Source: Bacteroidetes bacterium 43-16
Lineage (GTDB): Bacteria > Bacteroidota > Bacteroidia > Chitinophagales > Chitinophagaceae
NCBI GenBank assembly: GCA_001897525.1
Contig: MKTB01000007.1
Coordinates: 62,001-126,000 of the forward strand
DNA length: 64,000 nt
Reading direction: 5' to 3'
The position numbers and the translations under genes are program-made. This document shows positions 1-62,183 of this stretch, piece by piece. Each line of letters starts with the position of its first letter. The first letter of the stretch is position 1. The notes below the pieces were generated by a model. That model made no database searches. It saw nothing but the letters and a program-made list of their open reading frames with translations, and was not told the origin of the DNA.

Positions 1-432
1 GGCAAAGCGGATACAATTGCCCGCCATTTCAAGATTCACCAGGCTCTCCAGGATAGGGATATGGTTAATATTACCCAGGGCGATCTGCTCCAGCAGAAAC
101 TGGCTAAATATCATCACCTCATCTTTGAACTGGAAATTGCTTTTGGGATAGTAAGCCCAGAATTGACGGGTGTACTCCCGCGTACGCTCACCCAGGATAT
201 TGCAGGTATAAGGCATAAGGTCATACAAAGGGGTAAAGCGGTTGATCTGGTACAACATACAGCTGGTACCTATACCCCTGCTCTGCTGCAATAAGAATAT
301 AATCCTGTCTTTTTCAAGCGATGTAAGAACATACTTTTCATCCAGCAACTCCGGATTTTGTTTAACGGCTCTGCAAAAGTCTCCATTCGCTACAAGGTCA
401 GCAAAAGCCTGTTGAAATTCCTTTAAGGACAT
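1..432 (-). CDS. MNIO partner protein (DUF2063/HvfC-like or ChrI-like), partial
   Basis: This minus-strand frame starts at an ATG at 432 and stays open for 144 codons to the window edge, so the C-terminus is missing. The N-terminus (MSLKEFQQAFADLVANGDFCRAVK) resembles the start of DUF2063-type proteins, which sit next to DUF692 enzymes and are thought to bind the peptide substrate. It is rich in aromatic residues (YTRQFWAYYPKSNF) and looks mainly helical. The start codon overlaps the end of the DUF692 gene by 10 bases, which suggests translational coupling and a joint complex. The family assignment rests on position, the N-terminal pattern and helical character. It is not certain whether it belongs to the HvfC, ChrI or another partner class. 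Confidence 0.6.
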   Translation of the reverse strand, partial: MSLKEFQQAFADLVANGDFCRAVKQNPELLDEKYVLTSLEKDRIIFLLQQSRGIGTSCMLYQINRFTPLYDLMPYTCNILGERTREYTRQFWAYYPKSNFQFKDEVMIFSQFLLEQIALGNINHIPILESLVNLEMAGNCIRFA

Positions 433-1313
433 ACGATGTTTTTTGATTTCAGACAGATCGCTCTGGCGTGTTCCAATTGTTCTAAGATACCTTCATTACC
501 CATAGTGTTGAAATAGGATTCATGAAACTCAAACGTGACACCCCTGAGATTGGGACAATTAGGCACCACATAATCCAGCAGCTCCCATACTTCATCATTG
601 CATCTCCCGGAATGAGAATCCAGGTACATTTCGCCGATCACATTACCTCCGGCAATATGAATCTCTACCACATCTTTCAGGTCCAGGCTATCGATAAACT
701 GTTTACGGTCAAAATTAAAATTAGTGGCATTGGCATGCACATTATGCAGATCCAGTAATAAACCGCAACCGCTTCTGTTGCACAGTTCGGCTAAGAATGC
801 GCCCTCTTCATACTTTTCCTCATTAAATTTTACGAAATAAACATTGTTCTCCATCAGGAAAGGGGTGTCTACTTTTTCCTTTATCTGCCCTATCTTGCCG
901 GTAAGCATTTCCATCACCTCTTCATCAAAGGTAAGGGGCAAAGCCAGGCAGGTACTGTATTCTGTAACTTCCTCATCATGTACCTTGCTGTAAGAAAGAT
1001 GATCACTGTTCCATAAAAATCCGAACTGCTCCTGCAGGCGGATCACATTGTCTAAATATGCTTCATCAAAATAACCGGCAGTACCCAGCGAAAAGCCCAC
1101 ATGATGCGCTACGAGCGGCCAGCGCTGTCCCAGTTCCAAAATGCGCTTTTCATAAGCAGGAAACATATCAAAACGACCCGCTGCACCTACACCTTTATCT
1201 GAAAACCAGGTATCAGGTATAATCTCTATATAATCTACAGCATCTGGTACGGTGTCCAACAGGGTATCAAGCGACCTGTTGTACAGTATCCCAACACCTA
1301 CAAAATCATTCAT
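423..1313 (-). CDS. DUF692 family multinuclear non-heme iron oxidative enzyme (MNIO)
   Basis: A 296-residue protein, the normal length for DUF692 TIM-barrel enzymes. These bind two or three iron ions and oxidatively modify cysteine or other residues of ribosomal peptides (MbnB, TglH and ChrH are family members). Likely metal and active-site residues are visible: His70/His71 in AHHVGFSLG, Asp104-His105 in NSDHLS, Glu155 in MENNV, Asp188/His190/His193 in DLHNVHANATN, His219 in EIHIAGG, Asp232/His234 in DSHSGRC and Glu262/His264 in FEFH. All look intact, so the enzyme should be active. It lies 89 bases downstream of a small cysteine-repeat peptide gene and overlaps the partner gene. Together these make a three-gene RiPP-type cluster. 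The reaction carried out here cannot be read from the sequence. Confidence 0.9.
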   Translation of the reverse strand: MNDFVGVGILYNRSLDTLLDTVPDAVDYIEIIPDTWFSDKGVGAAGRFDMFPAYEKRILELGQRWPLVAHHVGFSLGTAGYFDEAYLDNVIRLQEQFGFLWNSDHLSYSKVHDEEVTEYSTCLALPLTFDEEVMEMLTGKIGQIKEKVDTPFLMENNVYFVKFNEEKYEEGAFLAELCNRSGCGLLLDLHNVHANATNFNFDRKQFIDSLDLKDVVEIHIAGGNVIGEMYLDSHSGRCNDEVWELLDYVVPNCPNLRGVTFEFHESYFNTMGNEGILEQLEHARAICLKSKNIVCP

Positions 1314-1332
1314 AAGTCTATGTTTTAAATAA

Positions 1333-1379
1333 AAAATAGATATAACAATACATTTGTTAATGTCCGTTATATCTATTTT
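1333..1379 (-). terminator. terminator/attenuator hairpin between peptide gene and MNIO gene
   Basis: A perfect 14-base inverted repeat (1333-1346 with 1366-1379) encloses a loop that itself folds as ACATT/AATGT around AACA. Read on the minus strand, the 3' arm ends in a T-rich run. It starts 23 bases after the peptide stop codon. It fits a partial terminator or mRNA-stabilising 3' end that lets the precursor be made in excess over its enzymes. Confidence 0.75.
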
Positions 1380-1402
1380 CTCAGGAAATTAAAATAAGCT
1401 GC

Positions 1403-1618
1403 TTAAATTTTTTCGGAGAATACGCCAACATAGTCAGCAATTTTTCCACCGGTAAATCCAGATCTGCAAGTTGGGCAGGTTGGCGGAATGCCGGTAAATC
1501 CGGAACGACATTCAGGACATAAAGGATCAAATCCAGGAATATCTTCTTCTCTGAAATTAGTCTGAACAGGCCTGTTAGATAATGTGGTTACTTCTGATTG
1601 GTTTGTTTGATTTTTCAT
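1403..1618 (-). CDS. candidate MNIO-modified RiPP precursor peptide with two CPxCRSGFTG units
   Basis: A 71-residue peptide directly upstream of the DUF692 enzyme on the same strand. The first 33 residues are polar and cysteine-free, like a leader. Residues 34-43 (CPECRSGFTG) and 48-57 (CPTCRSGFTG) form two near-identical units with a 14-residue period. The four cysteines are 34, 37, 48 and 51. A GG at 57-58 precedes a 13-residue tail with Tyr and Phe. There is no signal peptide or membrane segment. The encoding DNA of the two units differs at six synonymous codons, so the peptide, not just the DNA, is conserved. Alternative: a tiny four-cysteine zinc ribbon (CxxC-x10-CxxC). The DUF692 neighbour and the duplicated core favour a modified peptide. 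The product is unknown. Confidence 0.75.
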   Translation of the reverse strand: MKNQTNQSEVTTLSNRPVQTNFREEDIPGFDPLCPECRSGFTGIPPTCPTCRSGFTGGKIADYVGVFSEKI

Positions 1619-2508
1619 TTCTTTTCTAAGTTTAGATGTCTCCTACTCTATAAGCTTTTCGGAATACGCTTGTATTGTGTACATTAAAAATAATCCATTT
1701 AGATAATAAAAAAAAATATTTTTCTGGCACCGTATTATAACAGGCAATACAAATATTCGGAAATAGCCTATTACAACATAATTAAAAACCATGTAACGAT
1801 GTCTCCACCTGTCTCATAAAGAAGATAAGCGTACTTCCGTTATATTTTGTCGTTTAAACACAAACTAAAGTAATCATCAATGCAGACTTATCTGCAAAAA
1901 AATAATTACGGTTAATAAGAACCCGCTCCTGACAAGGATTACAAAAAAACAGCCTGTATGAATTAATCATTTTTTTTGCGGAAATTAAGCGTCCTCAAAC
2001 AAAGTCTGCTTTTAGCAAAAAAAACATATTTAAAATCTGATTTCTTTTTTATACTTTGTGCAAAATATCTCAAATTTGCAAACTTGTTATAATCCTTTTG
2101 CTATTTAAATAACAAGTACTGCTACAGACAGATACTTACATTGAATTATCTTTTTTGTTTCATACTACGGGTCCTCCTTTAGCATGCTCTCATGCATAAA
2201 AGGCAGGGCCTTTTCTTTTGACTACCCTGTCAACATTTCCTATTACCAAGCTTAAAAAAAATAAGTGTCTTTTTTGATGACAATATCAAGAAGCAGGCTG
2301 CTTATGCTTTGCCTTGAAGCACCTTTCTTCTGCCATTCAAATAGCTGCATTAAGCGACATAAAAAAGCTGCAACATTTCAGGAAAAAAAATATTGCCGGT
2401 CAATAAGGGTATTCCTGTAGTACCTCGTCTAAAATGAGTTAACCGATTCAAAGTAATATTATAGCTAAGCAGGACGGCTGTCACCGGGCCTTATTGATCT
2501 CTATTAAA
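1619..2508. other. 890-base AT-rich non-coding region
   Basis: No convincing gene is seen on either strand. The left end must hold the promoter of the cysteine-repeat peptide gene (minus), though no clean TTTG/TAnnTTTG pair is visible there. The right end must hold the promoter or leader of the glycosylation cassette (plus). A strong plus-strand terminator-like hairpin sits at 2170-2219 with no plus-strand gene before it. Confidence 0.6.
2170..2219 (+). terminator. orphan intrinsic terminator (possible small RNA end or leader attenuator)
   Basis: An inner stem GCATG/CATGC (2182-2186, 2191-2195) with a CTCT loop sits on an outer GC-rich stem (2170-2180 with 2198-2210, with two bulged bases) and is followed by TTTTCTTTT. 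No plus-strand gene lies upstream within the window. It may end a small RNA or act in the leader of the gene starting at 2509, about 290 bases away. Confidence 0.6.
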
Positions 2509-61934: not shown

Positions 61935-62183
61935 TTTGTAAATAGCATTCGATTGGTATGCAAAATATGACTTTCTTTACTCCTATGCAAAATTAAGTGC
62001 TCCCATTTCACTGGCATTCATGGTGCTGCAACAAGTACCGGCATTAAACCGATTCAGGCCAAAACAGGCAAAAACCGGAGTATTTAAATTCAATTTAAAC
62101 CTAACAGTTTGTCAAATATCTAAGTACTTAAGTCAAATGATATAAATAAAATTTATTTTTGTAGTATCAAGTTTAAAACAAAC

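Follow-up and report, generated by a model that had tools for sequence, protein, structure and literature searches.

A candidate MNIO cassette in Bacteroidetes bacterium 43-16

A 64,000-nucleotide (nt) stretch of the genome of Bacteroidetes bacterium 43-16 (positions 62001–126000 of contig C7, MKTB01000007.1; genome of 4.73 Mb in 39 contigs), hereafter the window, carries at its left end three genes that probably form a minimal cassette for a ribosomally synthesised and post-translationally modified peptide (RiPP). They encode a small precursor, a multinuclear non-haem iron-dependent oxidative enzyme (MNIO, DUF692) and a partner protein, and the predicted core of the precursor matches no curated family tested. 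The assignment is based on sequence comparison: scattered genomes of Bacteroidota have peptides with CPxC[R/L]SG units, an MNIO and a companion protein side by side in one constant order, and in most cases the DUF805b RNA element stands in front. Loci, genomes and contigs are designated below by L, G and C numbers.

The first-pass annotation had described a 71-residue peptide with two CPxCRSGFTG units upstream of a DUF692 enzyme and an overlapping partner on one strand, and all of these were located as claimed (Table 1); the DUF805b element had been missed. The three reading frames are intact. The partner gene starts within the end of the MNIO gene, with an overlap of 10 bases, and, as had been noted, it reaches the window edge; read in the genome beyond the window, it continues to the left and encodes 241 amino acids (aa) in full (L003:13707-14432).

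Table 1. Features of the cassette, in window coordinates
Feature	Position	Strand	Details
RiPP precursor	1403..1618	minus	71 aa; signal sequence (by eye) and double-glycine (GG) leader site both absent
First core unit, CPECRSGFTG	1490..1519	minus	Residues 34–43 (C34–G43), direct reading
Second core unit, CPTCRSGFTG	1448..1477	minus	Residues 48–57 (C48–G57), direct reading
Precursor C-terminal tail, GKIADYVGVFSEKI	1406..1447	minus	Residues 58–71; similar tail in L007 and L004
MNIO enzyme (DUF692, PF05114)	423..1313	minus	296 aa; Pfam match
MNIO partner, N-terminal 144 aa	1..432	minus	Gene runs past the left edge of the window
DUF805b RNA element (RF02914)	1640..1672	minus	In the precursor 5' leader; cmscan 39.2 bits, E = 1.3e-7

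The MNIO enzyme and its partner

The enzyme matched PF05114 with an E-value of 2.8e-53 (181.3 bits against a cut-off of 25, residues 7–262). Its scores were below the cut-offs of all four NCBIfam MNIO models matched, the best being BufB (158.3 of 310 bits), followed by HvfB (134 of 360), ApyH (99 of 400) and ChrH (65 of 600). A profile search against the PDB found 3bww (E = 3e-31), the DUF692 protein TglH (8hci/8hi7/8hi8, E = 7e-29) and MbnB (7dz9, E = 3.3e-7). Residues H70, H105, E155, D188, N191, H219, D232, H234 and E262 are identical in the four of seven clade enzymes that were aligned; several of the nine are common to TglH, 3bww and MbnB in the profile alignments and would include iron ligands. 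Asp242 and His244 of HvfB, as given in the part of PMC13419390 consulted, align via 3bww with D232 and H234 of the window enzyme if a one-residue offset is assumed. Compared with the enzyme of a sister species (G003), it shows 73% identity, and profile scans of viral contigs revealed no relative of either the enzyme or the partner. An AlphaFold-type model of the enzyme, built from a two-sequence alignment, was poor (pLDDT, the predicted local distance difference test score, of 54.9), and no claim is based on it.

The partner is homologous to the C-terminal domain of fused MNIOs (hhalign probability 90.8%, E = 1.2e-6), which are 487–516 aa long and carry this extra partner-like domain. It is not recognisably like the 174–182-aa partners of GCxxCGxxG loci (8%), which accompany the MNIO at L031, L032 and L034, where the pair stands with peptides of the GCxxCGLxG type, another precursor type without an assignment. 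A PDB sequence search with the partner returned spindlin and SUMO matches only (E≥0.015), which were judged to be spurious.

At all four loci with fused MNIOs (L021, L022, L030 and L035) the enzyme is preceded by a peptide of 71–92 aa with CPACHSGF, CPTCYSGF, CPGCHSGF or, at L035, CKPCISGS. These peptides have one CxxC each and share a V-x-V/L-P region, and those of L021, L022 and L030 have no Pfam match above cut-off. Given the CPxC[H/Y]SG peptides in front of fused enzymes, CPxCxSG looks like a wider MNIO substrate motif, shared by split and fused systems.

The precursor and its relatives

The precursor matches its two closest relatives in 49% and 45% of residues, and the differences at codon positions 1/2/3 number 22/20/47 and 25/23/38; among the precursors of the window, L007 and L004, third positions differ more often than first or second ones, by a factor of 1.5 to 2.4. 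Since relatives match and the differences are concentrated at third codon positions, the precursor appears to be a real coding gene. The two-unit architecture, with both CPxCRSGF units and the tail, is kept in L007 and L004, while peptides of L008, L027 and L028 have a single CCPxC[R/L]SG unit each (L008 and L027 with two precursors each), and the core of L029 is CQACLSG. In an alignment of eight peptides from six loci (L029 left out), residues M1, C37, C48, P49, C51, S53 and G54 (window numbering) are identical; C34 and G40 of the first unit are also invariant in a separate peptide alignment.

The core motif, which had been called unfamiliar, proved to be so: no NCBIfam model matched the precursor at E≤1, no Pfam model scored above cut-off, and the literature search found no paper carrying spellings of the CPxCRSG motif. 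The weak Pfam matches, all under cut-off, are mostly to zinc-finger-like models. The class I lanthipeptide leader model NF038153 gave 16.1 bits for L008 and 15.3 for L028, below its cut-off of 22, and no match at E≤1 for the window precursor.

The eight-peptide profile, searched against 394 genomes of the family, yielded 22 matches in 16 genomes. The seven strong ones (E≤5.3e-19, in five genomes) are the profile's own rows, each directly upstream of an MNIO gene; no new strong copy was found in this search, with or without an adjoining MNIO. Among the 15 weak matches (E≥9.6e-5), four are other GG-leader peptides, two are CP[RK]CRSG motifs antisense to a tRNA-synthetase gene (one Pfam-checked), and CPxCxSG is absent from all but these two. 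A Schlesneria match (L005) was put down to chance; most of it runs antisense to the final part of a carbohydrate-kinase-like frame.

Distribution and phylogeny

Window-type MNIOs (profile E≤1e-100) were detected in six of the 394 family genomes, including the present one (G000, G003, G005, G524, G582 and G644), and in one of 395 genomes drawn from the phylum, which is again the present genome. The cassette is present in two of five genomes of the genus. A seventh clade locus, L004, lies on a contig of a Crocinitomix metagenome-assembled genome (MAG). All seven loci have the same gene order, with a CxxC-core peptide just upstream and a partner overlapping the end of the MNIO gene. The earlier reading of the locus as an MNIO RiPP cluster is thus upheld at the sequence level by the PF05114 match, by the partner at all seven loci and by the lack of a strong peptide match away from the enzyme.

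A phylogenetic tree was built from 49 of the 61 MNIO loci, those with an assignable motif (thus without L009, L039, L045, L054, L055, L058, L062–L065, L070 and L077); the tool warned of long branches for L035, L034, L029 and L032. Each of six precursor-motif groups occupies one side of a branch, and the motif changes five times on the tree, the minimum, against a mean of 28.3 after shuffling. The enzyme phylogeny therefore tracks the precursor core closely, as would follow from the core being the substrate. Support for the window clade, which stands apart from the bufferin and ChrH/DybH (CPACGMG) types, is 97/94. The L004 enzyme groups with enzymes of the window's genus, which suggests horizontal transfer or a contig misplaced in the MAG.

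A DUF805b RNA element in front of the precursors

The sequences ahead of the precursor start codon in the window, L007 and L004 share a near-identical block, which Rfam assigns to the family DUF805b (RF02914). The L007 copy scores 43.8 bits and the six L004 copies 42.3–46.4 bits; these and the window copy are all over the gathering score of 35.6, and the spacing between element and start codon is 21 nt at all three loci. The search covered 54 of the 61 MNIO loci (all except L039, L055, L058, L062, L065, L070 and L077). At the gathering score, the element was located just upstream of the precursor at six of the 14 loci belonging to three enzyme groups of neither bufferin nor ChrH type (the window, L007, L004, L028, L022 and L034), and, at that score only, at none of the 40 other MNIO loci (26 bufferin-type, 9 CPACGMG-type and 5 unassigned). 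Fisher's test gives p = 1.2e-4 for this difference, a value that serves as a guide rather than a probability, the loci being related. Copies at L027 and L008 are under the threshold (29.2 and 27.8 bits), and none was found at L021, L029, L030, L031, L032 and L035. At L022 the element overlaps the first ATG and is separated by 20 nt from the following in-frame ATG, so that its upstream placement depends on the latter start. At L034 a second DUF805b-like block, seen by eye and not part of the gathering-score search, directly follows the first (just after position 2749, minus strand) before the precursor start.

DUF805b is not exclusive to MNIO peptides. With 150 of 2416 candidates scored, at least five copies in the present genome exceed the gathering score; among the candidates scored elsewhere, each of 12 other genomes has at least 0 to 12 such copies, and 14 control genomes have none. 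Inspected by eye, 13 places in the present genome and 26 elsewhere have GG-leader peptides, small secreted proteins or large exported proteins downstream, and a few have no clear downstream gene; one of the 13 (L108) is a three-mismatch pattern match only.

The structure consists of a hairpin and a proposed pairing of the loop with the 3' side (UCC with GGA). Pairing was assessed in 24 rows, of which one is from the window, seven are from L007 and L004, five are from other MNIO loci (L008, L022, L027, L028 and L034) and 11 are from elsewhere in the present genome, with several falling short of the gathering score. Bases are paired in 91.5% of cells, against a shuffled mean of 66.6%, and six of seven pairs have two-sided changes (23 distinct copies). 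Two covarying pairs fall in the proposed pseudoknot, G-C in 13 and U-A in 8 copies for the first and C-G in 20 and U-A in 3 copies for the second; this pairing is absent from the DUF805b structure printed by Rfam. Because the carriers of the U-A form of the first pair (the window, L007, L004 and L028) all belong to one clade, this change may be a single event.

At L004 (3527-4510) the precursor is preceded by five tandem units of about 200 bases, each with a DUF805b element and a 42-aa GG-leader peptide. The leader of these peptides is nearly that of the precursor, and the 12 residues at their C-terminal end, of STALILDLIVSG type, contain no cysteine; the peptides appear to be companions with which the MNIO precursor shares its leader.

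Rfam annotates RF02914 as Cis-reg only. The literature search found no mention of DUF805b, and the papers naming DUF805 have no RNA-related titles; as far as this search reaches, the link to MNIO precursors is undescribed. The RNA probably controls expression of the precursor, and the link would give an orphan RNA defined target genes, encoding RiPP and other exported peptides, for functional tests. A broader proposal is that CPxCxSG marks a separate, undescribed class of MNIO substrates with a chemistry of its own, served by split and fused enzymes, and that DUF805b is the shared 5' control element of such precursors and of other exported peptides of Bacteroidota; taken jointly, these two statements are tentative, and we consider it somewhat improbable that both hold.

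Leader, export and genomic surroundings

The leaders of the L004, L007, L008, L027 and L028 peptides contain GG (VAGG in L028). In the sister species (L017) both a GG leader and a C39-peptidase ABC transporter (PF03412, E = 1.1e-31) are present; the transporter gene is followed by one for a 149-aa protein without a family match, both running towards the cassette on the opposite strand, and the second ends 30 bases from the partner gene. In such relatives, cleavage of the leader after GG and subsequent export of the product through the C39 transporter are probable. Since GG is missing in the window's species, either another protease would free the product there or the product would stay inside the cell.

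The first-pass annotation had found no signal sequence, which inspection by eye confirmed, and had proposed that a transporter outside the window might export the product; this fits the situation at L017, whereas the window peptide itself has no GG site. Its further suggestion, a transporter or tailoring gene just beyond the window edge, was not substantiated: no peptide exporter or tailoring enzyme was recognised in the 14 kb to the left of position 1 (frames of at least 90 aa, by eye and with four Pfam checks). The frames checked were a CorA-like ion transporter, a HerA-like helicase, an IS1595 transposase and one without a match. The present genome has two C39-peptidase matches only, both on other contigs beside SPASM/ATP-grasp RiPP genes, and in both exporters about 65% of residues match the L017 transporter. 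With neither GG in the peptide nor a C39 gene on the window's contig, the cassette does not belong among systems with GG leaders and C39 export.

Several observations weigh against the assignment as a RiPP cassette. The absence of a GG leader site from the window precursor leaves the last maturation steps unsupported in this species, and in the stretches read a C39 exporter adjoins the cassette at only one of the seven clade loci (L017). At L018 the other strand carries an ABC-2 ATPase/permease pair about 2–4 kb away from the cassette, with look-alikes found by eye at L079 and L080. The complete partner has no Pfam match at E≤0.1, including DUF2063 (PF09836), which the partner of the bufferin-type locus L033 does match; in a comparison with the DUF2063-type partners from bufferin loci, hhalign gave it a probability of only 2.9%, and its 144-aa part within the window has no NCBIfam match at E≤1. 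An AlphaFold model of the partner from a two-sequence alignment was unusable (pLDDT 40.9), leaving a fold like the RiPP recognition element (RRE) unsupported. Finally, the cassette is conserved but rare.

Possible chemistry and alternative explanations

MNIO enzymes are responsible for peptide modifications that rank among the most unusual known. In the window cassette, the partner would hold the N-terminal leader of the precursor, while the iron centre of the MNIO, with O2, would probably carry out a four-electron oxidation of one cysteine per CPxCxSG unit, with a mass change of -4 Da per modified unit. The product could be a ChrH/DybH-like macrocycle with a hydantoin, a thiooxazole or oxazolone-thioamide, or a new structure. 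Four-electron oxidation to a thiooxazole or an oxazolone-thioamide is expected to entail loss of four hydrogens. The DybA product is likewise lighter by 4 Da, according to the part of PMC12636315 consulted; with -4 Da predicted per unit for both product types, mass alone cannot separate them.

A bufferin-like product, in which one cysteine of each unit would become a copper-binding 5-thiooxazole or oxazolone-thioamide, is possible, if somewhat doubtful. These are the cysteine modifications on the bufferin side according to PMC12636315 and PMC13419390. The bufferin/oxazolin systems (BufBC, HvfBC) have the same order of precursor, MNIO and partner, and the window enzyme leans to their side in clade position, in model scores, which are highest for BufB and then HvfB, and in the presence of a partner. 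A small protein with a heavy-metal-associated (HMA) domain (PF00403), encoded about 8 kb from the L018 cassette and resembled by one some 5 kb from the cassette at L079, is a candidate link to copper only. On the other hand, the enzyme reaches about half of the BufB cut-off and falls in a separate clade, no signal peptide is visible by eye, the cysteine motif is neither EGKCG nor CMGLNACKGHD, the partner is not recognised by DUF2063, and inspection by eye of the 14 kb left of the window brought up no recognisable copper gene. The cassette thus lacks the signal peptide, motif, BufB-type enzyme and DUF2063 partner that define bufferins.

The conversion of each CPxCRSG unit to a thioether macrocycle with a hydantoin, as by ChrH and DybH, appears unlikely. 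ChrA/ChrH and DybA/DybH belong to the same MNIO superfamily, occur in Bacteroidota and carry a CPxC turn with two cysteines that leads into xG; among the known characterised substrates, CPxCGxG is the nearest to CPxC[R/L]SG. In the parts of PMC10214503 and PMC12636315 seen, CPACGMG of ChrA and DybA gives the macrocycle and hydantoin, and for DybH (PMC12636315) the seven-residue motif suffices. However, ChrA and DybA have the motif at the C-terminus, a Sec or lipoprotein signal and a longer enzyme of a separate clade, whereas the window units are internal CPxCRSG and the window MNIO lies outside the CPACGMG clade. The BufB model also outscores ChrH (158 against 65 bits), and a partner is present, which DybH, going by the same part of PMC12636315, does not need. 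With neither a C-terminal CPxCGxG nor a ChrH-clade enzyme, the window cassette is not a chryseobasin system.

A ChrH-type cluster is encoded elsewhere in the present genome, on contig C15 (L002/L084:8524-8799). It comprises a 379-aa enzyme, 83 residues longer than that of the window, and three precursor-like peptides, two of them lipoprotein-like and ending in CPACGMG and one ending in CITCGRG, a variant of the ChrA core also seen in L012. This enzyme, too, is below the ChrH model cut-off (369 of 600 bits). One genome thus holds a ChrH-type enzyme for CPACGMG and a distinct one presumably for CPxCRSG, a natural pair with which to ask whether the chemistry follows the motif or the enzyme clade.

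PME-type 2 systems (pearlins, aminopyruvatides, biphenomycin-like and adjamnio; PMC12452194, in the parts consulted) likewise combine an MNIO with a partner without the DUF2063 signature, and adjamnio-7 precursors resemble the window peptide in having a CxxC motif and no signal peptide. Those parts of PMC12452194 name no CPxCxSG family, and its main text makes no mention of Bacteroidota; the window family may nevertheless coincide with one of the small clusters of that paper. As far as the literature search and these parts go, the precursor family is undescribed.

It is improbable that the cassette is decaying, with the peptide still made and its maturation or export lost together with the GG site and the exporter. 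Such decay would agree with the absence of GG from the window peptide, in contrast to its five relatives listed above, and of a recognisable peptide exporter in the 14 kb to the left, as well as with the IS1595-family transposase (L003:8279-9274), which is about 4.4 kb past the partner gene and has surroundings poor in long reading frames. Against it stand the intact frames, the identity of the enzyme to that of the sister species, and the retention of both CPxCRSGF units and of the DUF805b element.

The precursor could finally be a small zinc-ribbon protein, with two CPxC knuckles, 14 residues apart, on one zinc and the enzyme acting elsewhere, as a match to Zn_ribbon_19 (E = 3.5e-4; 21.1 bits, under the cut-off of 30.8) might suggest, but this is very improbable and was set aside, since the MNIO neighbourhood is conserved and the second CPxC is not: the L028, L008 and L027 peptides hold other cysteines but one CPxC[R/L]SG unit each, and fused-MNIO peptides a single CxxC, so that four zinc ligands are not conserved. 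Nor did the 394-genome search bear out a plain zinc ribbon occurring without DUF692 neighbours, which the first-pass annotation had named as the finding that would overturn its RiPP assignment.

Other observations

At L018 and L079 (G005 and G524) the cassette lies between genes for a FUR-family regulator (PF01475) and SRP54, both tested in L018. In the present genome, two SPASM/ATP-grasp RiPP clusters of the grasp-with-spasm type, at L082 (C33) and L083 (C17), each combine a C39 exporter with an HlyD-like gene, as checked with Pfam in L082. Their SPASM proteins score above the TIGR04193 cut-off (266 and 347 bits against 175), and the ATP-grasp proteins are just under that of TIGR04192 (214 and 194 against 230).

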